Position numbers and translations under genes: made by a program
NCBI GenBank assembly: GCA_021818955.1
Contig: JAKASR010000030.1
Span: forward strand, 1-39,620
DNA length: 39,620 nt
Source: Acidobacteriota bacterium
Lineage (GTDB): Bacteria > Acidobacteriota > Terriglobia > Terriglobales > SCQP01
Reading direction: 5' to 3'
In this document: in pieces, positions 5,841 through 38,008 of the stretch
How positions within the stretch are numbered: position 1 is the first letter of the stretch
Layout: every line of letters begins with the position of its first letter
Notes under the pieces: generated by a model
What the model saw: only the letters and a program-made list of their open reading frames with translations
What the model was told of the DNA's origin: nothing
Databases searched by the model: none

Positions 5841-5849
5841 GGGCGCAAA

Positions 5850-5856
5850 CCTCCGC
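5850..5856 (-). promoter_or_regulatory. Ribosome binding site fixing the GTG start of the receptor
   Basis: GCGGAGG on the minus strand, 9 bp ahead of the GTG at 5840. It decides between that start and the internal ATG at 5768. Confidence 0.55.
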
Positions 5857-6088
5857 TCAAGTGCTTTGCCCGCAATTGATGCAGTTTGCAGGCCAGTTCC
5901 CGGGCGGACGGGAACCCCTCGCATAACCATTACTTAGCGGAGAGTGGAAGCTTTCCAGCGGTCATCCACTTCAAATAATGAGAGTGGAGAAACATGGAAA
6001 AAACAAATTTCAGTATCCGCAGTTATAGCCGGCCAGAAAACATGCCACTACATTCCAATGCATTGCATACTAAAGCGCGGACAGCGAA

Positions 6089-7383: not shown

Positions 7384-9300
7384 TTGAACTCAACAGTAAA
7401 AACGATTTTGCTTTGGCTGGTATTGATCGCGGCCGTGGTGTTGCTCTGGCAGATGGTCAAAGGGAACACCGGCTCCGGGCCCATGCAGCAGTGGGCCTTT
7501 TCCGATTTCATGAATCAGGCCCAGGCGGGCAACATCAGCCAGGTCACCATCAATATCGCCACCGACGTGGCGCACGGCACGCAGAAGGGCACCAATAACC
7601 GCTTCCGCACCGTCATTCCCAACAATTATCCCGACGTTTACAAAGTGCTCACCCAGAAGGGGGTGGCGGTGACCATCAAGCCGCCAACGAACAACTCCTG
7701 GCTGAACATGATGATTAACGTGCTGCCGATTCTGATTCTGATCGCACTCTGGATCTTTTTCATGCGACAGATGCAAACCGGCGGCAACAAAGCGCTTTCT
7801 TTCGGCAAAAGCCGCGCCCGCCTGCTCTCGACCCAGCAGAAAAAGGTCACCTTCAAGGATGTGGCCGGGGTGGATGAGGCCAAGGAAGAACTGCGCGAAA
7901 TCATCGACTTCCTGCGAGAACCGCAAAAGTTTCAGAAGCTGGGCGGGCGCATTCCCAAGGGCGTACTGCTGATCGGGCCGCCGGGCACCGGCAAGACGCT
8001 GCTGGCGCGCGCCATCGCGGGCGAAGCCAACGTGCCCTTCTTCTCGATCTCCGGCTCGGATTTTGTCGAGATGTTCGTCGGCGTCGGCGCCAGCCGGGTG
8101 CGCGACCTCTTCGAGCAGGGGAAAAAGAACGCCCCTTGCATCGTCTTCATCGACGAAATTGACGCCGTCGGCCGGCATCGCGGCGCCGGCCTGGGCGGCG
8201 GCCACGACGAGCGCGAGCAGACGCTGAATCAACTGCTGGTGGAAATGGACGGCTTCGAGAGCAACGAAGGCGTCATCCTGATCGCCGCCACCAACCGGCC
8301 CGACGTGCTCGACCCGGCGCTGCTGCGCCCCGGCCGCTTCGATCGCCGCGTGGTGGTGCCGCGCCCGGACGTGAAGGGCCGCGAAGAGATCCTGCGAGTA
8401 CACTCGCGCAAAATTCCCCTCTCCGACAATGTCGATTTAAGCGTGCTGGCCCGCGGCACTCCCGGCTTCAGCGGCGCCGATCTGGCCAACCTGGTCAACG
8501 AAGCCGCGCTCAATGCCGCCCGCCAAAACCGCAAGACGGTGCTGATGGGCGATTTCGAGAGCGCCAAAGACAAAGTTCTGATGGGAGTCGAGCGCCGCTC
8601 GCTGATCATTTCCGACGAGGAAAAGCGCGATACCGCCTATCACGAGGGCGGGCACGCCCTGGTGGCCACCATGCTGCCTCATGCCGACCCGCTGCACAAG
8701 GTCACCATCATTCCGCGCGGCATGGCGCTGGGCGTGACCATGCAGTTGCCGGTGGACGACAAGCACACCTACTCGCGCGAATACCTGGAAGCCCGGCTGG
8801 CCATCGCCATGGGTGGCCGCGTCGCCGAAGAACTTTACATGAACCACATGACCACCGGCGCCGGCAACGATATCGAGCAGGCCACCGACCTGGCCCGCAA
8901 GATGGTGTGCGAGTGGGGCATGAGCGCGCTCGGGCCGCTGACCTTCGGCAAAAAAGAAGAGCAGATTTTCCTCGGCCGCGAGATCGCGCAGCATCGCGAT
9001 TTTTCCGAAGATACCGCCATCCGCATCGATCAGGAAGTGCGCCGCCTGGTGATGGATGGCTACGAGAAGGCCCGCCAGATTCTGACCGATCATGGCGATA
9101 TCCTGCACAAGCTGGCCGAGGCGCTGCTGGAGCGCGAGGTGCTCGACGCCAGCGAAGTGAAGCTGATCGTCGAGGGCAAGCCACTGCCCGCCTTAGTCGC
9201 GCCGCCGCCCAGCGGCGATACCGGCGCCGCCCAGCAGGTGCTGCGCCCCGAGCCCGGACGCCCGGTTCCCGGTACGCAGCCCGGCCCGCAGCCGGCCTAA
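7384..9300 (+). CDS. ftsH: ATP-dependent zinc metalloprotease FtsH
   Basis: 638-residue membrane-anchored AAA+ protease that extracts and degrades membrane and short-lived cytosolic proteins. The start is a TTG at 7384 ([10 protein letters not shown]): GAGG lies 8 bp upstream and this gives the usual family length and a first membrane segment at residues 8-24. The in-frame extension upstream is not FtsH-like. A second membrane segment spans about 112-127, leaving a small periplasmic domain between. Walker A GPPGTGKT is at 198-205, Walker B IVFIDEID at 253-260, arginine fingers R315 and R318 are in LRPGRFDRR, the zinc motif HEGGH at 420-424, and the third zinc ligand D496 in [14 protein letters not shown] replaces the commoner HEAGH. 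A Pro/Ala/Gly-rich tail ends the protein. Confidence 0.97.
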
Positions 9301-9329
9301 GCCGAATTCACCTCCTGTTACCCGTTGCC

Positions 9330-9352
9330 GGCCGCGCGAGGAATGCGCGGCC
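9330..9352. terminator. Hairpin between convergent ftsH and bshB1
   Basis: GGCCGCGC (9330-9337) and GCGCGGCC (9345-9352) form a perfect 8-bp stem with a 7-base loop in the 60-bp spacer between two convergent genes. There is no long T tract on either side, but a bidirectional terminator is the simplest role. Confidence 0.55.
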
Positions 9353-9360
9353 GTTGCGGT

Positions 9361-10125
9361 TTAATACGGCGTGATCAGGCCGCCGGTGGTGAAAGTATCG
9401 AAGTCGAGGTCACGCAAGTCGCCGGCGCGCAGCGGGGTGGGCGCAATGAAAGGCTCGCCGTAGCGCGCGCCGATCATCATGCCGTAATAGCGCGCCAGGG
9501 CTTGCAGGCGCGGCAGGATGTCGGATGCAGGGGGAAAGATGGCCGCGCCCGCCGCCTGATCGGCATATTGCGAACGGTAAGCCAGCAGCGCCTCGACGCG
9601 GCGCTCGAATTGGGCGGTGATATCCACCACCAGGGTGGGCGAGCGGCGGGCGTAGAGCGAGGCATAGAGCACGGTGCGCGGGCGGAAGGCCGGTTCGCCG
9701 CCGGGCAGCTTGAGCTTGCCGAGACCGGCGAGAAAGGCGGCGCGGTAGCCGAGCGCGCCGGCGGTGGCGTGGTCGGGATGGCGGGCGCGGGGATAGGGCA
9801 GCAGCAGCAGGCGCGGCCGCAGGCGGCGGATGGCCGCGGCTGCGGCATGCACGTAGGCTTCGCGTAGATCGAGGCCGCCATCGGGCAATTCGAGGTTGCC
9901 GCGCCAGGCCAAGCGCAGGCAGCGGGCGGCGGCTTCGGCCTCGCGAGCGCGGCTGAGCGCATCGCCGCGCGTGCCCAGCTCGCCGGCCGTCAACTCCAGC
10001 GCCCCGGTGCGCGCGCCCGCTTCGGCCAGGCGCAGCAGCGTGCCGCCGCAGGTCTGCTCGACATCGTCGCGGTGCGCCGCCAAGGCCAGCGCATCCAGCG
10101 GCGCATGAATTGAGGTTTTCGGCAT
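9361..10125 (-). CDS. bshB1: LmbE/PIG-L family deacetylase, BshB1-like
   Basis: 254-residue zinc-dependent deacetylase. The family removes the acetyl group from GlcNAc-malate during bacillithiol synthesis. The metal-binding motif is A-H-R-D-D-V-E at 17-23 and the second motif HPDH is at 116-119. The segments TAGELGTRGDALSRAREAEA and NLELPDGG are characteristic of BshB1 rather than other LmbE proteins. The motif normally reads A-H-P-D-D; the proline is replaced by arginine (CGC), while the metal-binding His and Asp remain. No bshA or bshC is in the window, so the pathway assignment rests on similarity alone. The gene is convergent with ftsH. The ATG at 10125 has only a weak purine run upstream. 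Confidence 0.82.
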   Translation of the reverse strand: MPKTSIHAPLDALALAAHRDDVEQTCGGTLLRLAEAGARTGALELTAGELGTRGDALSRAREAEAAARCLRLAWRGNLELPDGGLDLREAYVHAAAAAIRRLRPRLLLLPYPRARHPDHATAGALGYRAAFLAGLGKLKLPGGEPAFRPRTVLYASLYARRSPTLVVDITAQFERRVEALLAYRSQYADQAAGAAIFPPASDILPRLQALARYYGMMIGARYGEPFIAPTPLRAGDLRDLDFDTFTTGGLITPY

Positions 10126-22838: not shown

Positions 22839-23022
22839 AACCCTCTTCAAAGTCCATAGTTCTCAATAGCTTACCTCGCGGACTACGGGCTTGTCGCAGG
22901 ACTGGGAGTCCGGCCGGCGAAATCGAAAAACTGGATCAGGGTTAATTTTCGCCACCACTGACTCGGCACTGACTTATAGTGGATTTTTGACCTCTCGCAT
23001 TTCAAATATAGGGGAGTCGGGA

Positions 23023-25191
23023 ATGTCTCATTTGCGCCGCTTGCTATCCATCGTATTAGCATCCCTGTTTTACACGCTTGCGCTCGGAACCGGGCTGTGG
23101 GCTCAATCCAAGCCGCGCAACTATCATCCCCACCTGAACTCGCCGCGGGTCAAGGCAAAGGTGGATCAGCTCATGCGCAAGCTCTCCACGCGCGAAAAAA
23201 TCGAACTGCTGGCGGGCTACACGGGACCGGGATATCCGAACGGCATGTTTACCCATCCCTTCAAGCAGTTTGGCATTCCCGCGCTGAAGATGAGCGATGC
23301 TTCGGTGGGAGTGCGGGTGTGGGGGCCTTCGACGGCCTACCCGGCATCGGTGGCTTTGGCGGCCACATGGAACCCGGCCCTGGCGCGGCGCGAAGGCCGG
23401 GCGTTAGGCGAGGATGCGCGGGCGCGAGGCGTGAATATCGTGCTCGGTCCGGGCATGGATATTGTGCGCGAGCCGCAAGGCGGCCGCAATTTCGAGTACC
23501 TGGGCGAAGATCCGGACCTGGCCGGCCAGATGGGCGCAGCCTGGATCGAGGGATTGCAATCGGAACGCGTCGCCGCCTGCGCGAAACACTATGCCGGCAA
23601 CGAGCAGGAAGACAACCGCTCCACCATCAACTCCATCATTTCGCGCCGGGCGCTGGAAGAAATCTACTTGCCGCCGTTCCGCGACGCCGTCCGCAAAGGG
23701 CATGTCATGACCATGATGTGCGCCTATAACCGCGTCAACGGCGAATACTCCAGCGACAATCCCTTTTTACTGACCACCATGCTGCGCGACCATTGGCACT
23801 TCAAGGGACTGATGATGTCGGATTGGGGCGCCACCCATGCCACGCTGAGCGCCTTGAAAGCCGGACTCGACCTGGAAATGCCGAATAACGCGTACTTCAA
23901 CGCGAAGAAGATCGAGCCGCTGCTCGCCAGCGGCAAGCTGAGCATGGCGACCATCGATCAGCACGTCCGGCGGCTGCTGCGAGTGATGGTGGCAATGCAC
24001 TTCAACGATCGCCCGCAAACCGACCGCTCGTTGCCCAAAAATAATCCCCACAGCGCGGCGGTGGCTTTACAGGTGGAACGCGAGGCGGTGGTGCTGCTCA
24101 AAAATCAAGGCGGCATGCTGCCGTTGGCCGCGGACCGGCTGCATCGGATCGTGCTGGTCGGTCCGGATGTGTCGCCCGCCATTACCGGCGGCGCCGGCAG
24201 TTCCTACACCAAGCCCAATATCCCGCCGGTCAGCCTGCTCGAGGCGGTGCGCACGGCGGCCGGGCCGGGCGTTCAAGTGACGCAGATTCCCTATCCTTAT
24301 CCACTCCGCAGCATTCGCGCCTGGTGGATGCACCGCCCGCCGGCGGGCATTCAGGGACCGATGTTTACGGCGCAGGACCGGCAATTGATCCAAAGCGCGG
24401 ATGTGGTGATTGCCGGAATCGGCCCGCGCGAAGGCGAAGGCTGGGACCGCCATTTCCACATGCCGGCGCACCAGGATCAATACTTAAAGACGCTGGCGAG
24501 CATCAATCCTCACGTCATTGCCGTGCTTTATGCCGGCGCCAATGTCGCCATGAGCGCCTGGATCCACCAGGTTCCGGCGCTGCTGGATGCCTGGTATCCG
24601 GGGGAGAATGGCAATACCGCGGTGGCCGAGATCCTGTTCGGGAAACTCAACCCCAGCGGCAAACTGCCCGATAGTTTTGAAAAACACTGGCGCGACGCCC
24701 CCGCCTACGGGCATTACCCCGGACACGACGATCACGTGCACTTTGCCGAGGGCATCTTCGTGGGCTATCGCTGGTTCGACAGCAAGCATATCGCGCCGCG
24801 CTACCCCTTCGGTTTCGGCTTGTCCTACACCCAGTTCCACATCCATGGCATCGCCGTCCAGGCCAGCGGGCAAGGGCGCAGGCGGCAGGTGGTGGTTACC
24901 GCCGAGATCACCAATACCGGCGAGCGGGCCGGCGGCGATGTGGTGCAATTGTATGTGCGCCCGCCGCACACCTCCGGCGTGGTGCGCACATATCAGCAGT
25001 TGCGCGGCTTTCAGCGGGTGGAGTTGAATCCGGGGCAGACGCGCACGGTCAGCTTCCATTTACACTGGCGCGACTTCGCCTACTACAACACCGGCGCCCA
25101 CGGGTGGCGCGTCCCGGCGGGACGCTATGGCCTGGCCGTAGGCGATTCCAGCCGCAATATTGCCGGCGCGCCTTCGGTGCAAATGCAATAA
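23023..25191 (+). CDS. Secreted GH3 family beta-glucosidase
   Basis: 722-residue glycoside hydrolase. The start is the ATG at 23023 with GGGGAG 6 bp upstream; it yields a clean signal peptide (basic MSHLRRLL, hydrophobic core, cleavage near LWAQ-SK at 28). The GH3 N-domain carries K188-H189 (CAKHYAGNE) and the nucleophile D267 in MMSDWGATHA. The C-terminal alpha/beta domain and a fibronectin-III-like domain (GGDVVQLYVRPP ... RGFQRVELNPGQTRTVSFHL) follow, the usual beta-glucosidase/beta-xylosidase layout. The substrate is probably a beta-linked oligosaccharide from plant or microbial polysaccharide. It is a lone gene, 184 bp after msrB; candidate -10 TATAGT at 22975-22980. Repeat copy C follows the stop codon. 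Confidence 0.94.
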   Translation: MSHLRRLLSIVLASLFYTLALGTGLWAQSKPRNYHPHLNSPRVKAKVDQLMRKLSTREKIELLAGYTGPGYPNGMFTHPFKQFGIPALKMSDASVGVRVWGPSTAYPASVALAATWNPALARREGRALGEDARARGVNIVLGPGMDIVREPQGGRNFEYLGEDPDLAGQMGAAWIEGLQSERVAACAKHYAGNEQEDNRSTINSIISRRALEEIYLPPFRDAVRKGHVMTMMCAYNRVNGEYSSDNPFLLTTMLRDHWHFKGLMMSDWGATHATLSALKAGLDLEMPNNAYFNAKKIEPLLASGKLSMATIDQHVRRLLRVMVAMHFNDRPQTDRSLPKNNPHSAAVALQVEREAVVLLKNQGGMLPLAADRLHRIVLVGPDVSPAITGGAGSSYTKPNIPPVSLLEAVRTAAGPGVQVTQIPYPYPLRSIRAWWMHRPPAGIQGPMFTAQDRQLIQSADVVIAGIGPREGEGWDRHFHMPAHQDQYLKTLASINPHVIAVLYAGANVAMSAWIHQVPALLDAWYPGENGNTAVAEILFGKLNPSGKLPDSFEKHWRDAPAYGHYPGHDDHVHFAEGIFVGYRWFDSKHIAPRYPFGFGLSYTQFHIHGIAVQASGQGRRRQVVVTAEITNTGERAGGDVVQLYVRPPHTSGVVRTYQQLRGFQRVELNPGQTRTVSFHLHWRDFAYYNTGAHGWRVPAGRYGLAVGDSSRNIAGAPSVQMQ

Positions 25192-28081: not shown

Positions 28082-30289
28082 TTATTTCTGCGCGGTAGCG
28101 GCGCGCGGAGCAACCACCGCAAATTGGGTGCTGCTGTTGCCCACCGCATTCCCGGCCTGCACCTTGAGCGTCAACTGATACTGGCCCGGCGGGAAAGCGG
28201 CGGCAGGCAGGTTGGCGATATAGGAGATCCGGCCCTGGGCATCGGGAGCGGGCAACTTGGCCACCGGGCTGGCGTAGGGCACGCCGGCGGCGCTAAATTG
28301 CATCGTCACGGTGGCCGGCGGCAGGCCCTTGGGCACGTAGGCTACGAAGTAAAAACCGATGTTCTTGCTTTTGGAAGGCGCCATGGCATGCGAGAGGTTG
28401 GGTTCCAGGTGCATGTTCTGGTAATCCAGCGGATCGCCGCCTTTGGCGGCGCCTTTCATGCCAACCGCGCTTTGAATAATCACAATGCTGCTGACCCGGA
28501 TTTGACCAGGCGCGGCGGCGGCGACTTTGATCGGCTCGCTCAGCACGCTGGCGGCCTTGTTGAACGGCTCATAGACGGCGGTGCGGATGGTATAGCTGCC
28601 CGGCAGGAGATAGGCGCGGCGCGAAAATACCAGATTTTCATGCAGCAGCTTCGTCATTTGGGCGGCCGGAGCTTCATAAGGGTATTCGTGACTGAATTCG
28701 CGCACCACTTCGCCGGAGCCATCGAGAATCTGTTGCAAGACCACGAATTGCAGCATCTGCTTGCCCTGCAAGGCGGGATTGGCCTTGGTTTCGGCAAGGG
28801 TGACGGCGCGCGGGGTCAAGTCGGCCAGCGGCACGCGGGTCACCAGGTCGAGCATGGGCAGTTTGGGGTTAATGGGAAATTGCAGGGCGCGGCTTTCCAG
28901 CGCCAGTTGCTGGGGCGGCGGCGTTTGCGAAAGCAGCGACATCACCGGCAGTTCGTATTGCCGCACCGGCCGACCGAGCGAGGGAACGGCATAGTAGCCT
29001 TTGCGGGCGCGCACGATCCAGTCGGGATGACCAATCACGCGGATGGCGATGGTGTGATAGGAGCCATTCAAGCCGCTGGAGGGGGCATAGGTCAATTCGT
29101 AGTGGTCGCGAATATCATCGGATACCTGCCGCATGAAAGGCGCAAGGTTGTTGGCATGCGCGGCCAGGAAGCCTCCCGTCGAGGCCGCCAGGGTGCCCAT
29201 GGTGGTCAAGCGTCCGGAATATTTCACATTGGTGACGGTGTCAAACTCATGCGCCTGGGCGGACGAAACCGTGCCGCGGCCGCCGGACATGGCGGTGGAC
29301 ATGGCGACGGAGTTGGCGTAATTCAGGCTGTTGCGCACGTCGGTGGCGCTGGAAGTCAGGCTGAGCCCATGCGGATCGACCGGATAAAAACTGACGCTGG
29401 CGCGGTTGGCGGCATTCATGAGATTGCGGTAGACGAAGCTGGTGTTGGAGTTAACGCTGAGATACTGGCTGAAATAGAGCACTTCCTTGCGCCCCGGCAG
29501 AGCTTGCAGCGAGTTGACGATGCTTTGCAAAGCGGTCAACGTGGCCCAACTCTGCTGCTCGCCGCGCATCGAGGCGGCATGCTGCAGGGCGCGCGCAATC
29601 ATCTCGTTCATCTTGGCCTCGGCCAAGCCGGCCGCGGCCGAGGTGGAGGGGCTGGAGCGGCCGACGCCCGCCATGGCGGCGGACACATTCTGCTCTTCCT
29701 GCATGGCCTGCGCCATCAACTGATCGCCCTTCAGGGCATCATGGCGGAAGGCGCGGGCGCTGCCGCCGGTGGCCAACCGGATCGCCTTGAGCAGCGCGGC
29801 ATGATCGGTGGTGAAGTTCTGCAGCGCATAGAGCACCTGGTCAATGTCGTAGACGGCGACGTAATCGCGCGGACCGAGATCGTGCTCGATCAACTGATCG
29901 GCGGTTTGCTGAGCCAGCACCCGGCCTCCGGCGCCGAGACGATCGAAAACCAGCACAATTAAATTGAAGGGTTGGGGCCGGATCAAGCCGGGCAGGCCCG
30001 CCTGGAGCAGGTCGGCGCGGGTGAGATGCACCGAAGCCGGCACGCGGCGGAAGCTGGCAATCTTCTGAGGCACATTGTCGTCGAGCACCTGCAGTTGCGA
30101 CGGCTGCACGCCTTTAATGATTTTGCCGTGGGCATCGGTCACGACGAGGTCAACCATCACTTCGCCGACGCGCTTGTGAATGGTTACCTTGGCGGCAGGC
30201 GTGACCGGCTGTTGCGCCCACACGGTCGCAGCCAAAACCAGCAGCGGCCACGAGGCGGGCAGACAACGCAAGCAACGGGAAGGGTTCAT
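28082..30289 (-). CDS. Acidobacterial VWFA-related domain protein
   Basis: 735-residue exported protein. N-terminal signal peptide (SWPLLVLAATVWAQQ near 13-27). Residues about 35-75 form a strand-rich lead-in (GEVMVDLVVTDAHGKIIKGV, then LQVLDDNVPQKIASFRRV), the hallmark of the acidobacterial 'VWFA-related' family (TIGR03436 type). The VWA-like core begins with FNLIVLVFDRLGAGGRVLAQ; the metal site motif D-x-S-x-S is absent (D-R-L-G-A), so metal-dependent adhesion of the classical kind is doubtful. The C-terminal 250 residues are beta-sandwich-like (LPGSYTIRTAVYEP, FPPGQYQLTLKVQAGNAVG). It lies 18 bp downstream of a TPR gene, in an apparent operon. Function unknown; probably protein-protein contacts in the periplasm or at the surface. 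Confidence 0.88.
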   Translation of the reverse strand: MNPSRCLRCLPASWPLLVLAATVWAQQPVTPAAKVTIHKRVGEVMVDLVVTDAHGKIIKGVQPSQLQVLDDNVPQKIASFRRVPASVHLTRADLLQAGLPGLIRPQPFNLIVLVFDRLGAGGRVLAQQTADQLIEHDLGPRDYVAVYDIDQVLYALQNFTTDHAALLKAIRLATGGSARAFRHDALKGDQLMAQAMQEEQNVSAAMAGVGRSSPSTSAAAGLAEAKMNEMIARALQHAASMRGEQQSWATLTALQSIVNSLQALPGRKEVLYFSQYLSVNSNTSFVYRNLMNAANRASVSFYPVDPHGLSLTSSATDVRNSLNYANSVAMSTAMSGGRGTVSSAQAHEFDTVTNVKYSGRLTTMGTLAASTGGFLAAHANNLAPFMRQVSDDIRDHYELTYAPSSGLNGSYHTIAIRVIGHPDWIVRARKGYYAVPSLGRPVRQYELPVMSLLSQTPPPQQLALESRALQFPINPKLPMLDLVTRVPLADLTPRAVTLAETKANPALQGKQMLQFVVLQQILDGSGEVVREFSHEYPYEAPAAQMTKLLHENLVFSRRAYLLPGSYTIRTAVYEPFNKAASVLSEPIKVAAAAPGQIRVSSIVIIQSAVGMKGAAKGGDPLDYQNMHLEPNLSHAMAPSKSKNIGFYFVAYVPKGLPPATVTMQFSAAGVPYASPVAKLPAPDAQGRISYIANLPAAAFPPGQYQLTLKVQAGNAVGNSSTQFAVVAPRAATAQK

Positions 30290-30307
30290 GATGGGTTCTC
30301 CGGAACT

Positions 30308-31525
30308 TCAGTGCTGGGTTACGGGTTTTTTCGAGATCCGCGGCAGAAAGGCCGAGGCGGGCAAGACGCCTTTTTGCATCAAGGAACTAGCCAGGGGACG
30401 GAGGCGAAGAAAAGCCTGCTGTTCTCGGCGAGCGGCGGCATAACGGTGCAGCCGCAGATAAGCTTGCGCCAAGGCATAACGAATCTGGCTGTCGTCGGGG
30501 ACAATCATTTTGCTGATTTCAAGCTCGCGCGCCGCGGCGTGATAATGCTGTTGCTGCATCAGCAACTCGCCGCGCAGGTAATGCGCCGCGAAATTTTGCG
30601 GCTGCAATTTGAGCGCCTCGTCCAGATAGACGGCGGCATGCCGCAGATGATTGTTGGCCAAATTGTCAGACGCCAGTTGCAGGCGCGCCGGCACGCTCCG
30701 GGGATTGATTTGCAATTCTTCCCGGAAAGCCTGCAGCGAGGCCTGCTGCCGCCCCTGCGAAGCCAGGAAGACAGCCTGGACATAGTGCAGGTTGGGCGTG
30801 CGAGGATGGGCTTTGACCAGCCTGGAGATCAACTGCAGCGAGAGGGCGAATTTACGCTCGCCGGCCAGGAACTCCGCCCGTCCCACTTGGCGCACCAGTT
30901 GCAGGCGCGCGCCGCCAATGGTCTGAGGCAAGGTTTCGCTGAGCAGGGGAATGCGCAACGCCGCCAAGCCATAGGCGTAGAGCACGCCCGTGGTTTCATG
31001 CTGATGCATGGGGAAGTAGCGCAAGATCAGCATTGCCTGATCGTAGTCGCGCATGAGGATCAGATCCTGCGCCTGATGATAGAACGCCACCTGGCGCAGA
31101 TTCGGGTCGGGAGGCAGTCCCAGCGCGATCCCCTCCTGGATATGGAGCAGAGATTGGTTGAAGTCGCGCATCTCGAAGTCGCACAACCCGCGCAGCACCC
31201 AAGGCGCGCCCAGGCGGCGGTTCAGGCGGGTCAGATGGATAAAGGCAATGCGCGCGGCGGAGAATTGATGATCCTGATAAAGCAGGACGCCCAGCCGCCA
31301 CCAGCCTTCTTTCCATTTCGGATCGCGTTCCACCGCGCGCTGGAAAAGGTCCACAGCGCGGCGGGCATGGCGCCGCGCCAAGGCCGATTCCGCGTCCTTT
31401 TGAAGCCGGCTGAGCGGCGGCACGGACGCGGTTTGCGCCGGGGCGCGCAGGGCGAGGCCGGCGAGGGCCAGGGCGAGTGCTCCGGCGAAGGGCAGATAGC
31501 CGCGATATATCCGATGAGGGTTCAT
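30308..31525 (-). CDS. TPR-repeat exported protein
   Basis: 405 residues. Signal peptide at 1-31 (YLPFAGALALALAGLALRAPAQ). The rest is tetratricopeptide-like helical repeats: A-V-D-L-F-Q-R-A-V-E-R-D-P-K-W near 57-71, A-R-I-A-F-I-H-L-T-R-L, Q-S-L-L-H-I-Q-E-G-I-A-L-G-L, Q-A-S-L-Q-A-F-R-E-E-L-Q-I-N-P-R-S and A-A-V-Y-L-D-E-A-L-K-L-Q-P-Q-N. TPR scaffolds bind other proteins; partners are unknown. The start codon overlaps the stop codon of the preceding gene (ATGA at 31522-31525), so translation is coupled. It is part of the TPR-TPR-VWFA run. Confidence 0.88.
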   Translation of the reverse strand: MNPHRIYRGYLPFAGALALALAGLALRAPAQTASVPPLSRLQKDAESALARRHARRAVDLFQRAVERDPKWKEGWWRLGVLLYQDHQFSAARIAFIHLTRLNRRLGAPWVLRGLCDFEMRDFNQSLLHIQEGIALGLPPDPNLRQVAFYHQAQDLILMRDYDQAMLILRYFPMHQHETTGVLYAYGLAALRIPLLSETLPQTIGGARLQLVRQVGRAEFLAGERKFALSLQLISRLVKAHPRTPNLHYVQAVFLASQGRQQASLQAFREELQINPRSVPARLQLASDNLANNHLRHAAVYLDEALKLQPQNFAAHYLRGELLMQQQHYHAAARELEISKMIVPDDSQIRYALAQAYLRLHRYAAARREQQAFLRLRPLASSLMQKGVLPASAFLPRISKKPVTQH

Positions 31526-32760
31526 GACGGCTTGGGGGAGGATTGCGATGAGGACGGCAGAGGCGTCAGGCTGTGGCCCTCGCGCTCGCCCATAGCGGTG
31601 GCGCGCGCCTGCTGGCGGGCAATCAACCGGCGCACCGTCGCCTGCTCGCGCCGGCCGGCGGCGGGCTGGCCCAGCTCATAGTCAACTCGCCCGATCAGCA
31701 CATGCGCCTGAATCAAACTGCGGAGATCGCGGGTATTAAGCCGCGCGGCCGCGCGCAGCCGCCGCAAGGCGCGATGCGGATGGTGGGCATCCAGCTCGGT
31801 CATGCCCAATTGCAGTTGCGGCTGAAACGCCTCCGGCGACATGGCGATGGCGCGTTTTAGATACTGCACCGACTGGAGCCAATTGCCCTGTTGGCGATAG
31901 AGATAGCCGAGATAGAAATTGGTTTCGAAGTTATTGGGATTGAGGGCATACTCCGCCTGGAAATTCTTGAAGGCGCCGGCGGAGTTGCCCGACAGCAGTT
32001 GCGCCATGGCCAGGCGAAGGTGGGCCAGGGGCAGGCGCGGCGCCATGGCTATCGCCTGGCGGTATTGCGCGCGCGCCTGCTTAAGCTGGTGGCGCTGAGA
32101 ATAAGCGTCGCCCAGCATGAGATGAACGATGGGGCTGTTGCCGCGGGCCATGATGCGGTTGATCCAGCGCCCGCCGCGCTGGAGATGTCCTTGCCGGATA
32201 TAGGCCGTGCCCAGAATATAGGCCACGGCCAAGTTACCGGGCCGGCTCGCCGCCAGCGGGCGCGCGACTTGAATGGCCGCGGCATATCGGCCCAGCGACA
32301 AATCGCAACTGGCCAGCAGCAGCGAAGCTTGCAGCTCGGCCGGACGCGCCCGATGGAAAAGCGCCAGATCGCGCGCGGCGTCGGGAAGATTGCCGGTCTT
32401 GTATTCGGCCAAGGCCAGATCGAGACGCGGCGTCAAAAGCTCAGGGTCCAGCTTCAGCGCCTGGCGGTAGGCTCCAGCGGCCTGGCCCAAATCGCCCAAA
32501 TGGGCATAAGCGGCGCCCAGATTCACCAGGACCCGGGGCAGATTGGGTTCGAGCCGCAAGGCATGCCGGTACTGGCGCACCGCCGTTTTCCAATCCCCTT
32601 GGGCGGCCGCCGCCGCCGCCATCCGCGCCACTTGCGTGACGGCTTGGACAGGGGTGTCCACGGAGGGCGGGAGCGAACTGGCTGCTAACTGCGCCTGCGT
32701 GGTCAATCCAGCGCCGAGGACCAGGCATAGCCAAAAACCATAAAGCCGTACTGAAGGCAT
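31522..32760 (-). CDS. TPR-repeat exported protein, first gene of the TPR-VWFA operon
   Basis: 412 residues. Signal peptide at 1-25 (FWLCLVLGAGLTTQAQ). It then has about nine tetratricopeptide repeats, for example W-K-T-A-V-R-Q-Y-R-H-A-L-R-L-E-P-N, LGQAAGAYRQALKLDPELL, LKQARAQYRQAIAMAPRLP, SAGAFKNFQAEYALNPNNF and LQSVQYLKRAIAMSPEAF. AGGAAG lies about 5 bp before the ATG. It overlaps the next TPR gene by 4 bp. Transcription must start after the terminator at 32821-32855; a TACAAT at about 32783-32788 on the minus strand is the only -10-like string there. Confidence 0.9.
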   Translation of the reverse strand: MPSVRLYGFWLCLVLGAGLTTQAQLAASSLPPSVDTPVQAVTQVARMAAAAAAQGDWKTAVRQYRHALRLEPNLPRVLVNLGAAYAHLGDLGQAAGAYRQALKLDPELLTPRLDLALAEYKTGNLPDAARDLALFHRARPAELQASLLLASCDLSLGRYAAAIQVARPLAASRPGNLAVAYILGTAYIRQGHLQRGGRWINRIMARGNSPIVHLMLGDAYSQRHQLKQARAQYRQAIAMAPRLPLAHLRLAMAQLLSGNSAGAFKNFQAEYALNPNNFETNFYLGYLYRQQGNWLQSVQYLKRAIAMSPEAFQPQLQLGMTELDAHHPHRALRRLRAAARLNTRDLRSLIQAHVLIGRVDYELGQPAAGRREQATVRRLIARQQARATAMGEREGHSLTPLPSSSQSSPKPS

Positions 32761-32820
32761 GCTGCTTCCTGTGCTGCTTATTGTACGACGGCGGCACGAA
32801 GATATATTCGCTGTTAGTAA

Positions 32821-32855
32821 AATAAAAAAGAGGAAGCATCCGTGGATGCTTCCTC
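32821..32855 (-). terminator. Intrinsic terminator after the second Oar-like receptor gene
   Basis: On the minus strand GAGGAAGCATC pairs perfectly with GATGCTTCCTC (plus-strand 32830-32840 and 32845-32855) across a 4-base loop, followed by TTTTTTATT. This is a canonical Rho-independent terminator, 24 bp after the receptor stop codon. It separates the receptor gene from the downstream TPR-VWFA genes. Confidence 0.88.
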
Positions 32856-32878
32856 CATTCCTGCCCGCTTCACGGCAA

Positions 32879-35800
32879 TTAGAAAATGTACTTGATTTCC
32901 AATTCCATGATGCGGTGTCCGCTCTTTGAACTCAACATGCCCGGATTCAGATTTTTAACCGTTGTCATTCGGGAATTGTAATTTCTGAACGGAATCTGCG
33001 TATCCAGGCCGGAAGTGACCCAGTTGGCATGGTTGATGAAGTTGAAGCCTTCAATCCGAACCTGGAGTTTTTGCGATTCGCTTTTGCCGATCCCGAAATT
33101 CTTAAAGATGCCCAGGTCATTGTTCATGAACGAGGGGGTATGAATGTAGGGGATCTGATAGTCGCCGTTATTGCCAAAACTCGGCGACTTAAAGCAAGAC
33201 GGGTCGTAATACTGTTGCGGCTTCAGGTTCGCGGTCGGGTCGCAGACTACGAACATATGCACGGTGGAATCCGGCGTGCCGTTGATGTAGCTGGAGTTGA
33301 AGTTCGGCCCGGAGTTTGTCCCCGCAATTCCGCCGCCTTCAGAGACCATGCCCGGAATAAAGGGGGCGCCGCTCTGGAAGGTGCTGATGCCGCTGAACTC
33401 CCAGCCATTGAAAACGCCATCGGCGAGGAAATTATCACCCATGTATTTCCGGCCGATATCCGGCAGCAGGAAGTAATAATCCACGGAGAGCGTCTGGGTG
33501 CGATCCCAGGGCTCCGGCCCGTAGCTGCGGCCGCGTTGGTTGAACGGATCCACAATGCTGGTCAAGCCGCCATCGACAGGCTCGCCGATGCCCAGCACTT
33601 TGCCGAAGGTATAGGAAATCGCATACCCCAGCCGCGAAGTAGTGCGGTTCACGGTTACCTGCAGCGAGTTGTAGTTGGACGAGAGGGCGTGACCAGTGGT
33701 GCCAATATTCGCATAATTGACGTAAGGCCGATAGTTCTGGTCCACGATACTACCCGAGCCGCCCGGGCATCCTCCGGAGCCGGTAACGCCGCTGGAGCAA
33801 TCCTGCAGCCAAGCGGCCGATTCCGCGCCCCAGGGAACAGTATTGAAGTTATAACCGCCGTTTCCGCCCAGCGTCTGGTGGCTGGATTCGTTGCCGACGT
33901 AGGACACTTCCAATACGGTCTGGAAGGGAATCTTCTTCGACAGCGTGAAGCTCCAGTTATAAGTCACCGGGACGTGATTGTCGCCGAATTGCAATACATT
34001 CAGATTGCTAACCCCGGCGCCGGAAACGTTGGCCGGATTTTCCAGTTGGGCGAAGGTGTAGCCGCCTTGAATCGTCGAAGAGGACATGTACGGCGGATTG
34101 CCGATGGCGCCGAAGAATACGTTGCCTTGATCGCGGAAGAAGTAGGCGCCAAAGCCGCCGCGCAGGATGGTGGAGGCATGACCGGTCAGGTCGTAAGCAA
34201 AGCCAAAGTGCGGGCCCACGCTAAAAGCCGGGGTGGTAAAGCCGGATTTGGGCACGTTATGGGTCAGCGCATAGCTTTCCACGCCCGAATAGCTGGACAA
34301 ACTGGCCGAGCCGCCACCAAAGTTGTTATAGCCGCCGCCGCCGCCCTGATTGCAGCCGTAAAGTCCCGGATGGAAGCAGGTGGGGCCTTGATAGTCGGCA
34401 GGCACGAAATCGGCGATCCGGCCGTGCTTATCAAACATCCAGCCCATGTGATAGAGCCGCACGCCATAGCTGAGGGTCAGCCGCGACGAGGTTTTCCACG
34501 AATCCTGGATGTAGCCGTCAAACTCGTTGTCGGCCATGTTGCCGGTTAACTGCGTACTGGCTTGCGAATACCAGCCGACGTCGCCCAGCAGCAGGTTGGA
34601 ATAGGCATTACCGGTATTGGTGGTGCCGTTCCAAATGCCCCAGGGGGTGGTGCTGACTTCACCGCGCGGATCGCCAGTGGGTTGATCGTTGGTATCGTGT
34701 TCGTAGTACACGCCCATCTTCAGCAGATGGCTGCCCACCACCCAGGAAAGGTCGTCGCGCACATCGTTCAGCCACTTGTTGGCGAACGTCGCCGGGATGG
34801 TGCTGCCGCAGGCGTTGCACAGGGTCGCCTCGCCGCCTCCCCAGTCGGTAATCATCGGCATGTAATCGGTGCTGTTGTTACCGTACAGGCCGTGATAGGG
34901 AAAGCCGAGCGCGCTGCGGCTGTCTAAGTTAGAATTTTGCTCGCCGTTGGGCAGGTCGAGACGGCTAAGGCCATACTGCAATTCGTTGGTCAGCGTCGGG
35001 CTGAGCACGTTGATTAATGTGCCGGTGTACTGGATTGAGTGGTCGTTGGCGAACTCATTGCCCGGGAACGGCACGTCCGAACCGCCCCACCACAGGCCAT
35101 AGGGCATGAGCTGGTGCTCGCGGTCGTAGTCGAGCGTGACGTACAGCTTGGTGTTTTCGGTGAAGTCGTAATCCACGCGCCCGCGCAGGGTGTGATGGTT
35201 ATCCTGCGCGAGCGGGTCGACGATGTAATCGTACCCTTGATTCACCGCCGGATTTAATGTTCCCGTCGGATACATCTTCATGAAGGCCATGCCGCCGGGA
35301 TCGAACGAGGCGGAATTCAACACGCCCGGCCCGCTGCAATAACTGGCCAGGTTGCCTTTACTATCCGGCTGGCAGGGGACCGTGTTGATGTCATACCAGG
35401 GCAGGCCTTTAACGTCATTGAAGTTGCCCAATTTTTCCGCCGCCGTAGGCACATAGGCGCGGTGCACGCCATCGTCCTGCTGCTGCCTCATGTATTCGTA
35501 GCCGACAAAAAAGAACATCTTGTTGCGGTGCTTGTTGAATCCCGTGCCGGGAATCAGTACCGGGCCGCCGATGTTGAAGCCGGGGTAATAGTAATTCGCC
35601 AGCGGGCGGGCCGTGTGGGTGAAATTGGCTTCCCAATCATTGGCATTGAGCTGGTGCAGGCGGGTGGAGTAATAGGCTTCGCCATGGAAATCGCGCGTGC
35701 CGGCTTTGGTCGTGGTCGAGATCACCACCGGGCCTTTGGCATTTTCCGCGGAAAAGTTCGCCGTCTGGACTGTGACCTGCGAAATCATATCCACGTCGGG

Positions 35801-36478
35801 CGGCGCAACGTTGCTGCAGTTGCAGCCCGGATCGATGTTGTCGGCGCCGTCGAAAGTGATCGAGACTTGGTCGGAACGCGAACCGTTCACATTGAATGCG
35901 CCCACGCCCTGGTTGTAGCCGGCCACCTCGGCGTTATAGCCGTTGTCCACCACGCCGGGCAAAATCTTCAGCAATTCCACGGCACCGCGGCCCTCAATCA
36001 CGGTATTCGCGATCTGCTGCGAGGTGATGACTTCCTTTTTAGCGCCGGAGTTCAGCGGAACCGCGTAGTAGGCCGTGCCCTTGACGTTGATGGATTGCGT
36101 CACCGAGCCGGGCTGCAGCTTCAGGTTGGGGATTTCGACGTTGCCGAAGGAGTTAATGGCGATGTTGGTCTGATGCAGAGTGCTAAACCCTGTCTTCGAC
36201 ACCGTCACCGCATACCGGCCCTGCGGCACACCGACGAAAGTGAAAAAACCGGAACCGTTCGTTGTCGCCTGGCGCACTTCGCCGCTGGCTTCGTTGACCA
36301 GAATCACCTTGGCTTGCGGCACTACCCCGCCGGAAACATCATGGACGGTGCCGTTGACCGTAGCCAGGCCACCCTGCGCGCTCAACCGCCGGCTCAACAG
36401 CAGGAGCCCCACAGTCAGAGCGACTAAGGCAACGAAGATGACGCGGAAGAAACGCTGTTGAAAGAGTTGCTGCGACAT
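32879..36478 (-). CDS. Oar-like TonB-dependent receptor family outer-membrane protein
   Basis: 1199 residues from the ATG at 36478, preceded by AAGGGG at good spacing; a GTG two codons upstream is less likely. Signal peptide at about 12-36 (VIFVALVALTVGLLLLSRRLSAQ). Then a carboxypeptidase-regulatory-like domain (VNGTVHDVSGGVVPQAKVIL), a plug-like region (VIEGRGAVELLKILPGVVDN, FDGADNIDPGCNC, VVISTTTKAGTRDFHGEAY) and a long barrel with many Tyr/Asn/Gly strands, ending in a terminal aromatic residue (MELEIKYIF). The C-terminal aromatic is the expected BAM recognition signal. Paralogue of the receptor at 2502-5840. Substrate unknown; its context with exported TPR and VWFA-related genes suggests surface handling of large molecules. 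Its own promoter and terminator are visible. Confidence 0.9.
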   Translation of the reverse strand: MSQQLFQQRFFRVIFVALVALTVGLLLLSRRLSAQGGLATVNGTVHDVSGGVVPQAKVILVNEASGEVRQATTNGSGFFTFVGVPQGRYAVTVSKTGFSTLHQTNIAINSFGNVEIPNLKLQPGSVTQSINVKGTAYYAVPLNSGAKKEVITSQQIANTVIEGRGAVELLKILPGVVDNGYNAEVAGYNQGVGAFNVNGSRSDQVSITFDGADNIDPGCNCSNVAPPDVDMISQVTVQTANFSAENAKGPVVISTTTKAGTRDFHGEAYYSTRLHQLNANDWEANFTHTARPLANYYYPGFNIGGPVLIPGTGFNKHRNKMFFFVGYEYMRQQQDDGVHRAYVPTAAEKLGNFNDVKGLPWYDINTVPCQPDSKGNLASYCSGPGVLNSASFDPGGMAFMKMYPTGTLNPAVNQGYDYIVDPLAQDNHHTLRGRVDYDFTENTKLYVTLDYDREHQLMPYGLWWGGSDVPFPGNEFANDHSIQYTGTLINVLSPTLTNELQYGLSRLDLPNGEQNSNLDSRSALGFPYHGLYGNNSTDYMPMITDWGGGEATLCNACGSTIPATFANKWLNDVRDDLSWVVGSHLLKMGVYYEHDTNDQPTGDPRGEVSTTPWGIWNGTTNTGNAYSNLLLGDVGWYSQASTQLTGNMADNEFDGYIQDSWKTSSRLTLSYGVRLYHMGWMFDKHGRIADFVPADYQGPTCFHPGLYGCNQGGGGGYNNFGGGSASLSSYSGVESYALTHNVPKSGFTTPAFSVGPHFGFAYDLTGHASTILRGGFGAYFFRDQGNVFFGAIGNPPYMSSSTIQGGYTFAQLENPANVSGAGVSNLNVLQFGDNHVPVTYNWSFTLSKKIPFQTVLEVSYVGNESSHQTLGGNGGYNFNTVPWGAESAAWLQDCSSGVTGSGGCPGGSGSIVDQNYRPYVNYANIGTTGHALSSNYNSLQVTVNRTTSRLGYAISYTFGKVLGIGEPVDGGLTSIVDPFNQRGRSYGPEPWDRTQTLSVDYYFLLPDIGRKYMGDNFLADGVFNGWEFSGISTFQSGAPFIPGMVSEGGGIAGTNSGPNFNSSYINGTPDSTVHMFVVCDPTANLKPQQYYDPSCFKSPSFGNNGDYQIPYIHTPSFMNNDLGIFKNFGIGKSESQKLQVRIEGFNFINHANWVTSGLDTQIPFRNYNSRMTTVKNLNPGMLSSKSGHRIMELEIKYIF

Positions 36479-36538
36479 CCACACACCCCTTTACGAGCCC
36501 AAAAAGTTGGACGCCCTGTATGAGTTGGCTCCTCTCTC

Positions 36539-36597
36539 AATAGCCTACTCATACTGGAATAGCCTAATCAGCATATACTAGGCAACTTGCTTGTCAA
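36539..36597 (-). promoter_or_regulatory. Promoter with 19-bp direct repeats for the second receptor gene
   Basis: On the minus strand, TTGACA (plus 36592-36597), 16 bp, TATGCT (36570-36575). Immediately downstream TAGGCTATT occurs twice with a 19-bp period (plus-strand AATAGCCTA at 36558-36566 and 36539-36547), each preceded by AGTAT a few bases earlier. The repeats overlap the expected transcription start and early leader, a position suited to repressor operators. Confidence 0.5.
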
Positions 36598-36865
36598 CAT
36601 AAAAAAATATGATCATATTCAATTTTCTTATCGCTTATATAAATAAAACCTAAAATATAGACACTGCGGGCGGCTTTACAGTCGAATGTTTTTCGTATTT
36701 GTTGGCGGCTTGAACCAATGGAAAACCCACTTAAGCACCCTGGAACATGAGGGTTGCAGCGCATTTGTTTGACGCTCGAACTAATAGGCGTCGGTTTGAG
36801 CCGATCCGCGGGCCGCGGTTCGGCCAAGCCTGGAATAAAATGACTAGCGAGCTGAGAGCCAAATT
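36598..36865. other. AT-rich divergent spacer before the cytochrome gene
   Basis: With the promoter segment this spacer is 387 bp. Its left part (36598-36660) is very AT-rich. No credible gene is found; the minus-strand frame across it has no ribosome binding site or protein-like composition. TTGACG at 36769-36774 might be a -35 for the cytochrome gene but lacks a good -10. A 9-codon frame (ATG 36840 to TGA 36867-36869) overlaps the cytochrome start and could couple translation. Confidence 0.35.
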
Positions 36866-38008
36866 TTGAAACGCCGTCTCATTCCGATTTGCTTGTTGTT
36901 GTGCGGCGGACTTTTGTGGCTATCCGCGATAGGGCAGCAGGACACGAAAGCCGTTTCCGCTACGGTCAGCGATTTCAGCCGCAACTGGTTGCCCAGCCGG
37001 GGCGCGCCGGCGGGGTTGCACTATGTCGGCGCGGCCGTGTGCGCCAGTTGTCATGTTTTTGAAGCCGCGGAGCTCAAGACGCCGATGGGCGAAGCTTCCT
37101 TATTACCCGCTCAAAACAAGGTCTTGAATCATCAACCGCGGCTGAGCGCGCGCAACGGCGCGGACATCTATCGATTGGCGCGGCTTTCGAACGGGGACGA
37201 GATTTATAGCGTCACGGCCGGCGGGCAAACCGCGCAGGCGACGTTGCAATGGGCTTTTGGGCTGGGCTACGCCGGGCAGACCTATTTATACCAAGCCCAA
37301 CACATCTGGCATGAAAGCCGGGTGAGCTATTTCAAGCAAATCCATGGGCTCGACACCACTATCGGTTATTCGCCGCGGCCGCCGCGCAACCTTCACGCGG
37401 CGCTGGGACGGCGCATGGGACAGGATGAGGCGCGGGCCTGTTTCGTCTGCCACACCACCGGGGCGGTGCGGACGGGACAATTTCTGCCGGCCCAAGCCAC
37501 GCCCGGGGTCACCTGCGAGCAGTGCCACGGTCCCGGCTCGGCGCATGTGGCGGCGATGCGGGCGCACCGTTACGCCCAGCCGCAGATATTCAATCCCGCC
37601 CAGCTCTCGCCGGGACGGCAAGCGGATTTTTGCGGCAACTGCCATCGCACCCTGATGATGGTGATGCAAATGGGGGTCAGCGGCATTCTGGACGTTCGTT
37701 TCCAACCCTATCGGCTGAGCTTAAGCAAGTGTTACAACCCGTCCGACGCCCGCATTACCTGCCTGGCCTGCCACGATCCGCACCATGCGCTGGTCAAAAA
37801 AATCTCCTGGTATGACGACAAATGCCTGGCCTGTCATATCCATCGCGGGCAGAAAACGAGCTGGCAGATGCCCGGCCAGGCTTGTCCGGTGGCGCAGCGG
37901 CGATGCGTGAGTTGCCACATGCCGAAGCTGGCGTTACCGGGCGCGCATCATCTTTTTTCCGATCATTACATCCGCATCGTCAAGCCAGGCGCGGCCTACC
38001 CGGATTAA
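36866..38008 (+). CDS. Seven-heme c-type cytochrome, exported
   Basis: 380 residues from a TTG at 36866; the encoded signal peptide KRRLIPICLLLCGGLLWLS begins right there and no ATG occurs until residue 74. Seven CXXCH heme motifs: 59-63, 192-196, 217-221, 256-260, 299-303, 320-324 and 347-351. A heme-free region of about 130 residues lies between the first and second motif. The closing block CVSCHMPK ... GAHHLFSDHYIRI is common in multiheme cytochromes related to cytochrome c554/c-prime types. It should be periplasmic and carry electrons; donor and acceptor are unknown. Divergent from the receptor gene. A hairpin terminator follows at 38093-38117. Confidence 0.9.
   Translation: MKRRLIPICLLLCGGLLWLSAIGQQDTKAVSATVSDFSRNWLPSRGAPAGLHYVGAAVCASCHVFEAAELKTPMGEASLLPAQNKVLNHQPRLSARNGADIYRLARLSNGDEIYSVTAGGQTAQATLQWAFGLGYAGQTYLYQAQHIWHESRVSYFKQIHGLDTTIGYSPRPPRNLHAALGRRMGQDEARACFVCHTTGAVRTGQFLPAQATPGVTCEQCHGPGSAHVAAMRAHRYAQPQIFNPAQLSPGRQADFCGNCHRTLMMVMQMGVSGILDVRFQPYRLSLSKCYNPSDARITCLACHDPHHALVKKISWYDDKCLACHIHRGQKTSWQMPGQACPVAQRRCVSCHMPKLALPGAHHLFSDHYIRIVKPGAAYPD

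Follow-up and report, generated by a model that had tools for sequence, protein, structure and literature searches.

A recurrent Oar/TPR/VWA gene set facing a heptahaem cytochrome gene in Acidobacteriota: a possible nutrient-handling module

Introduction

Few bacteria are commoner in soil than Acidobacteriota. They harbour many Oar-type transporters, the substrates of which are mostly not known. Proteins of the Oar subclass are defined by the combination of a CarboxypepD_reg and a Plug domain, and the Oar protein of Myxococcus xanthus is needed for the secretion of the protease PopC (PMC6434023). OcwA, a relative of NrfA, HAO and MccA, is a terminal reductase located at the surface; it contains two open haems and has weak activity with nitrite and hydroxylamine (PMC6703420). 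CRTAC1 genes have been described beside genes of hydrazine-synthase-like haem proteins in a paper on anammox enzymes (PMC12758564); by CRTAC1 we mean here a protein that combines FG-GAP and UnbV_ASPIC. The present study concerns a gene cluster in which an Oar-type transporter gene, two genes for TPR proteins (TPR-A and TPR-B) and a VWA gene face the gene of a heptahaem c-type cytochrome. It is located in a stretch of 39,620 nucleotides (nt), the whole of which is called the window: positions 1 to 39,620, forward strand, of contig JAKASR010000030.1 (C42 in our numbering) of assembly GCA_021818955.1, a draft of 3.80 Mb in 47 contigs and 96% complete from an Acidobacteriota bacterium (GTDB lineage Terriglobia; Terriglobales; SCQP01).

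The component families of this cluster are already known and what appears to be new is their recurrent combination. No description of the combination was found in the open-access literature, and subscription papers may hold one. The set is not described in the accessible text of work on Granulicella WH15 omics, on granite xoxF clusters and on Solibacter, nor in that of PMC12758564 and PMC5615132.

Results

A conserved gene set facing a cytochrome gene

The following features of the window are relevant (proteins in amino acids, aa):
28082-30289, (-) strand: VWA protein of the long TIGR03436 type, exported (signal-like start), 735 aa; MIDAS residue D116 kept, SxS absent
30308-31525, (-) strand: TPR-B, exported TPR protein (signal-like start), 405 aa, mostly TPR families
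31522-32760, (-) strand: TPR-A, exported TPR protein (signal-like start), 412 aa, mostly TPR families, next after Oar
32829-32856, (-) strand: terminator-like hairpin in the Oar/TPR-A gap, 12 pairs and a T-rich tail
32879-36484, (-) strand: Oar-type TonB-dependent transporter, 1201 aa, GTG start; CarboxypepD_reg, Plug and OMP_b-brl_4
36485-36865, no strand: divergent control region between Oar and cytochrome, with a regulator gene at the same place in relatives
36570-36597, (-) strand: sigma-70-like promoter for Oar, TTGACA-16-TATGCT; the block around it is conserved in G001, the nearest relative
36866-38008, (+) strand: heptahaem c-type cytochrome with an OcwA/MccA-like predicted fold, 380 aa, TTG start
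37100-37417, (+) strand: predicted lipocalin-like barrel of seven strands (cytochrome residues 79-184), between haem 1 and haem 2

All five genes are present where the initial annotation had placed them. The genes for Oar, TPR-A, TPR-B and VWA adjoin in transcription order on the (-) strand; the two TPR genes share 4 nt, 18 nt separate TPR-B from VWA and 118 nt separate TPR-A from Oar. The gene with seven CxxCH motifs is divergent and begins 381 base pairs (bp) from the Oar start, so that the overlap of the TPR genes and the opposite orientation of the seven-haem gene stand as claimed. Each of the five products has a signal-peptide-like start when the sequence is read by eye, and by the same inspection no classical lipobox was seen in any of them; all five are probably located outside the cytoplasm. 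A CRTAC1 gene is absent from the window cluster.

A search with TPR-B covered all 14 genomes of the family and yielded nine full-length matches (>280 bits; next match 40 bits) in seven genomes and none in the remaining seven. The VWA gene follows 3' of TPR-B at all nine sites, at one of them (contig C76 of G001) with an opposite-strand CRTAC1 gene inserted between the two. On contigs that reach far enough, TPR-A precedes TPR-B in 8/8 and Oar precedes TPR-A in 7/7 cases. The TPR-B genes of L050 and L146 had been missed by the open reading frame (ORF) picker and were placed by this search. The fixed order and the short overlaps of 4 nt recur across the family copies, and trees of the cluster parts largely agree with one another, though their deeper forks are weak. 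The initial annotation had named a lack of synteny in any relative as a finding that would speak against its idea; the order conserved at nine of nine TPR-B sites, as far as the contigs extend, shows that synteny is not lacking.

The cytochrome gene diverges from Oar in five loci, namely in the window and in G002, G010, G006 and G007 (contig C119). A sixth case is likely in G001, where contig C58 stops 354 bp upstream of Oar and 288 bp of contig C15 precede the match most similar to the cytochrome (66% identity), since the two contig ends have a 17-bp string in common. The source genome contains a second copy of the set on contig C18 (L040, 324-11973) with Oar, TPR-A, TPR-B, a long VWA gene and two further genes; after the long VWA gene come genes for a CarboxypepD_reg-containing TPR protein and for CRTAC1 (324-2087).

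Partners of the cytochrome beyond the family

An alignment of 17 cytochrome sequences was used to scan the named genomes and gave 80 loci. Most of these belong to Acidobacteriota; Planctomycetota, Bacteroidota, Gemmatimonadota and other groups contribute more distant ones. Cytochromes with a profile score >400 were regarded as close; this applies to 23 named loci, several of which are cut by contig ends. L060, L069, L074 and L085 were left out of the 23 as repeats of family-set genomes or fragments (L074 has partners, L069 and L060 do not), and at another four of the 80 loci no cytochrome call exceeded the threshold. As a control we used 250 unlabelled genes from 20 evenly placed stretches of seven sister-family genomes. 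Any of Oar, TPR or CRTAC1 is encoded within four genes of the cytochrome at 21 of the 23 close loci compared with 36 of the 250 control genes (one-sided Fisher test here and for the single partners, 3e-14). The difference is largest for TPR (17/23 vs 4/250; 1e-18) and CRTAC1 (13/23 vs 0/250; 2e-16) and smaller for Oar (10/23 vs 32/250; 7e-4); within the same distance LacI was found in four and a long or other VWA gene in three of the close loci. A partner is present at five of six loci outside the training set, one of the six (L198) being close to a locus seen earlier, and at 25 of 52 more distant loci. CRTAC1 is a frequent extra partner of the cytochrome loci that the initial annotation did not include; nor did that annotation mention the sugar-type regulators that stand between Oar and cytochrome in relatives or the terminator-like hairpin after Oar.

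Two of the five partner-bearing loci outside the training set are those of G128, a member of another family in which genes for VWA, cytochrome, TPR-B, CRTAC1 and TPR-A are found together, and of G067, where the cytochrome locus has CRTAC1, TPR-B, TPR-A and a VWA gene. L080 carries TPR-B, cytochrome, TPR, CRTAC1 and long VWA on one strand and Oar with another CRTAC1 on the other. Relatives of TPR-B directly adjoin the cytochrome gene in L052, L076, L078, L080 and L196. Moreover, TPR repeats are fused to the cytochrome in all six scanned members of a group of distant relatives of 600-720 aa, N-terminally in L090 and L099 (Planctomycetota) and C-terminally in L051, L055, L113 and L123. These fusions indicate that TPR protein and cytochrome are a natural pair.

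Sugar-type regulators and glycoside hydrolases (GH) are located nearby in relatives. In G006 (L050) a complete ORF with Peripla_BP_3 and an AraC-type helix-turn-helix, the make-up of XylR, is inserted between Oar and cytochrome, and a LacI-family gene has this position in L055, L067 and L086. Cytochrome neighbours in the sister family include GH31, GH92, GH30 with CBM6, GH16, GH29, GH2 and GH3 with an FGGY kinase. The neighbour scan covered 93 of 101 proteins, eight being left out as repeats. For the comparison the large neighbours from family f2 (19 of 47) and 64 of 65 large control genes (the longest left out) were used; glycoside hydrolases account for 8/19 of the former, a count that includes the GH16 of L055 and takes the alpha-amylase match as a separate protein, and for at least 6/64 of the latter (Fisher p 0.002). 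As these genomes are rich in glycoside hydrolases, the enrichment is only moderate evidence.

The heptahaem cytochrome

The seven CxxCH motifs are located at residues 59, 192, 217, 256, 299, 320 and 347. Neither Pfam nor NCBIfam offers a model specific to the family that scores above cut-off, and the DmsE/MtrA-type model scores 36 bits against a cut-off of 192. The predicted structure is confident (mean pLDDT 89, pTM 0.87, 38 sequences). Its alignment by VIA-align to OcwA gave a Z score of 13.5 over 273 residues (rmsd 4.2, 22% identity) and that to the undecahaem S-layer cytochrome of Carboxydothermus ferrireducens a Z of 12.6 over 252 residues; MccA, a sulfite reductase, reached 9.0 and NrfA 5.3, with unrelated rows at 5.5. 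The Z scores of 13.5, 12.6 and 9.0 suggest that the modelled core fold is shared with the multihaem lineage of OcwA, MccA and HAO. When solved structures were searched with a profile, OcwA, chain A of MtrCAB, the S-layer cytochrome and c554 matched locally. OcwA itself was rejected as an identification on account of seven CxxCH motifs compared with nine haems and of the C-terminal three-helix bundle missing in the model, which contains no long C-terminal helices.

Model residues 55-160, which make up the barrel part, align with many lipocalin-like barrels but reach only a low Z, and the fold of the inserted part is therefore assigned no further than 'lipocalin-like'. A counterpart of this insert between haems 1 and 2 is not shown in OcwA; the spacing of about 130 residues between the two haems is found in nearly all long relatives of the cytochrome. 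Among 38 cytochromes only the histidines 227, 306 and 367 are invariant outside the CxxCH motifs, Met352 and a CHMP haem motif are likewise invariant, and a pair of non-haem cysteines (289/340) is nearly so. Since there are only three invariant distal-type histidines for seven haems, a conserved distal histidine may be absent at some of them and open haem sites are conceivable; the model itself does not contain the haems.

A paralogue of the cytochrome (56% identity) is encoded elsewhere in the source genome (contig C29; L042, 7995-9194) beside a class II tRNA-synthetase gene. It has an orthologue at the same place in G001 (L046) and no Oar or TPR neighbours. In L198 of G029 (8742-9870) the cytochrome is split into two overlapping frames (matches 2710879-2711535 and 2711514-2711963), which is likely a frameshift or an assembly error in that genome.

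Oar, TPR and VWA proteins

The Oar protein has an N-terminal CarboxypepD_reg extension (PF13620, 61.6 bits, residues 42-123), a weakly matching Plug (PF07715, 25.2 bits, cut-off 23.9) and an OMP_b-brl_4 barrel (452 bits, residues 258-1157); by its domains it belongs to the Oar subclass. ExbD is present in the source genome, where 25 stretches match Oar and represent some 15 or more Oar genes. One of these genes is located in the window at 2502-5930 and has no TPR or VWA partners; it was rejected as kin of the cluster Oar because of its long branch in the tree, the two being only distantly related. TPR-A and TPR-B matched TPR families and no SusD family at E 0.001, and membership in a SusCD or Sus-type locus was rejected for want of a SusD match.

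The VWA protein scores 204.3 bits with TIGR03436 (cut-off 81.25) and has no Pfam match. Of the 13 TIGR03436 matches above cut-off in the source genome, the long type (profile >1000 bits) is confined to the two Oar-TPR-TPR-VWA copies and to a pair of genes by the contig end of C14 (L041, 5123-13021), away from Oar clusters. The canonical metal-binding VWA MIDAS motif is DxSxS. In the aligned long VWA proteins the aspartate is kept in 13/13 and SxS in 0/13; the protein was consequently rejected as a canonical metal-binding VWA and metal-dependent binding by it is doubtful. Its model is poor (mean pLDDT 55.4, pTM 0.43, five sequences) and nothing rests on it. Neither VWA nor Oar matched a solved structure at E 0.1 in a sequence search. 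UnbV_ASPIC occurs nine times in the source genome, once in the C18 copy of the set.

Control region and neighbouring features

In the hairpin at the Oar/TPR-A junction (32856-32829, (-) strand) the stem is followed by TTTTTATTTT. Hairpins of similar strength and different sequence are present at the same junction in G002, G010, G007 and the C76 copy of G001 (L047, L048, L154, L147); the hairpin is weaker in L040, and none was found in L146 or L050. Owing to this hairpin the four (-) strand genes need not form one simple operon, and Oar may be transcribed in excess over TPR-TPR-VWA. Promoter-like sites in the stretch number four, with 3.5 expected, and are thus at chance level. Also located in the control region, at 36515-36557, are an inverted repeat, imperfect and with 16-nt arms around an 11-nt spacer, and a direct repeat of 13 nt; these are a possible operator and are not conserved as such in G001. 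A GH3 glycoside hydrolase gene is located on the other strand at 22891-25191, and some 3 kb lie between it and the VWA gene end; its best NCBIfam models are of the arabinopyranosidase and glucosidase types, all below cut-off.

Discussion

Our preferred, still tentative reading, to which we assign somewhat less than an even chance, is that the cluster encodes a TonB-dependent nutrient-handling module under sugar-type control, the cytochrome of which performs substrate-linked redox chemistry. The nutrient would most likely be a plant or microbial glycan or a glycan-derived compound. Oar would be the outer-membrane TonB-dependent transporter of the module and TPR-A its binding or adaptor partner in a role like that of SusD without being SusD, while TPR-B would bridge the transporter group to the heptahaem cytochrome. 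The VWA protein, and CRTAC1 in sister clusters, would be exported parts for binding or adhesion. The cytochrome would be an electron-transfer protein or reductase of the OcwA/MccA lineage whose redox chemistry is linked to the substrate, and its transcription would start from the divergent region common with the transporter, where relatives have a sugar-type regulator. A more specific version is a redox-coupled nutrient-acquisition locus in which a lipocalin-barrel heptahaem reductase reduces the substrate, or takes electrons from it, at the cell surface before uptake by Oar with its TPR, VWA and CRTAC1 partners; this version we regard as rather unlikely. The initial annotation had suggested a surface machine with redox coupling by the cytochrome. 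This is borne out as regards the conserved order and the company of cytochrome, Oar, TPR and CRTAC1 beyond the family, while the redox role of the cytochrome is suggested by its modelled likeness to OcwA and MccA only.

Several observations weigh against the preferred reading. Foldseek found no significant match for the cytochrome model, the best being MccA (E 0.28). The cytochrome is absent from the second copies of the set (C18 of the source genome, C76 of G001), and the paralogue on C29 without Oar and TPR neighbours means that the link between cytochrome and cluster is not obligatory. Of 149 good genomes from across the phylum, 11 have a close cytochrome, which is thus widespread yet uncommon. 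Cytochrome loci made up part of the training set of the TPR and CRTAC1 profiles, which favours the detection of both at such loci, and the control genes are not independent because they share 20 stretches. The control count of glycoside hydrolases is a lower bound (at least 5/32 plus at least 1/32), and p would be 0.04 if it were 12/64. Finally, neither a glycoside hydrolase nor a sugar regulator is found directly in the window cluster; the nearest is the GH3 on the other strand, about 3 kb off.

Alternatively, Oar could act as an exporter. It would then bring VWA, CRTAC1 or the cytochrome to the surface, chaperoned in the periplasm by the TPR proteins, and a surface adhesin and redox layer would result. 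Its domain make-up of Oar is the same as that of the M. xanthus protein shown to act in secretion (PMC6434023), the cluster neighbours look exported and are without a lipobox, and the fold of the cytochrome is closest to the surface cytochromes OcwA and that of the C. ferrireducens S-layer. However, the sugar-type regulators and glycoside hydrolases of the relatives fit uptake better and most of the Oar genes in the source genome have no adjoining VWA or cytochrome, and we consider export improbable. A comparably low probability is given to the assumption that no machine exists and that exported families numerous in Acidobacteriota simply adjoin, each with a separate role. Oar is indeed abundant (10 in 331 control genes, and within four genes of the 32/250 mentioned above), the hairpin after Oar together with the separate promoter permits separate expression, and some copies of the set lack the cytochrome. 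Mere clustering does not account well for the frequencies of TPR and CRTAC1 at the close loci compared with the control, for the family-wide fixed order with 4-nt overlaps or for the TPR-cytochrome fusions.

Two further explanations concern the cytochrome and appear very unlikely to us. A conduit for extracellular electron transfer, in which the barrel houses or docks the cytochrome for respiration of humics or metal oxides, could be deduced from the sequence matches to MtrCAB chain A, OcwA and c554, from the OcwA fold match and from the porin-multihaem cluster proposed for bog Verrucomicrobia (PMC5615132). The barrel of the window, though, is of the plugged TonB type and not an MtrB-type porin, the fold match is to OcwA and MccA with a merely local match to MtrA, and an inner-membrane quinol oxidase partner was not seen in the cluster, where the scan covered part of the window. 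An MtrCAB-type porin-cytochrome complex was rejected in view of Plug and CarboxypepD_reg and of seven haems in a protein unlike the decahaem MtrA. The cytochrome might instead be a detoxifying reductase for a small nitrogen or sulfur oxyanion that is only co-regulated with the transporter; the activities of OcwA (PMC6703420) and MccA would agree with this, and three invariant distal-type histidines for seven haems leave room for open sites. Such a function leaves the steady company of TPR and CRTAC1 unexplained, and the cytochrome model is one without haems.

The recurrent partner set provides a handle on Oar-type transporters through linked genes, the type of regulator and a cytochrome amenable to purification. 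Should the redox arm prove true, glycan acquisition would be tied to surface electron transfer in a dominant soil phylum. In addition, a heptahaem family without a model of its own and CRTAC1, with its open bacterial role, gain a genomic home and a list of partners.

Comparison with known systems

Like the Oar of M. xanthus, the window Oar combines an N-terminal CarboxypepD_reg extension, a Plug and a large outer-membrane barrel, but it is paired with TPR and VWA genes and faces a heptahaem cytochrome. Sus-type loci of Bacteroidota similarly have a TonB transporter beside an exported TPR protein, and sugar regulators and glycoside hydrolases are near in relatives of the present locus; in contrast to these loci, the window has the cytochrome, no SusD-family domain and no visible lipobox. 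An outer-membrane barrel gene that adjoins a multihaem cytochrome gene is a feature common with MtrCAB and the clusters of bog Verrucomicrobia, yet the window barrel is plugged and carries CarboxypepD_reg, and its cytochrome is OcwA/MccA-like with seven haems rather than MtrA-like or octahaem. The anammox-enzyme case (PMC12758564) has in common that a CRTAC1/FG-GAP gene accompanies exported haem proteins; the haem proteins are different ones, and the accessible text of that paper mentions no Oar or TPR partner. The MccA/NrfA lineage is approached by the alignment scores of 9.0 and 5.3 and by the invariant CHMP motif of the window cytochrome family, but differs in the number of haems, and the window cytochrome has no CxxCK active-site haem and no visible CX(n)CH long motif. 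With OcwA of Thermincola potens and the S-layer cytochrome of C. ferrireducens the window cytochrome agrees in predicted fold and in local sequence matches; it differs from them by seven haems compared with nine and eleven, by the lipocalin-like barrel inserted in the model and by its Gram-negative host.

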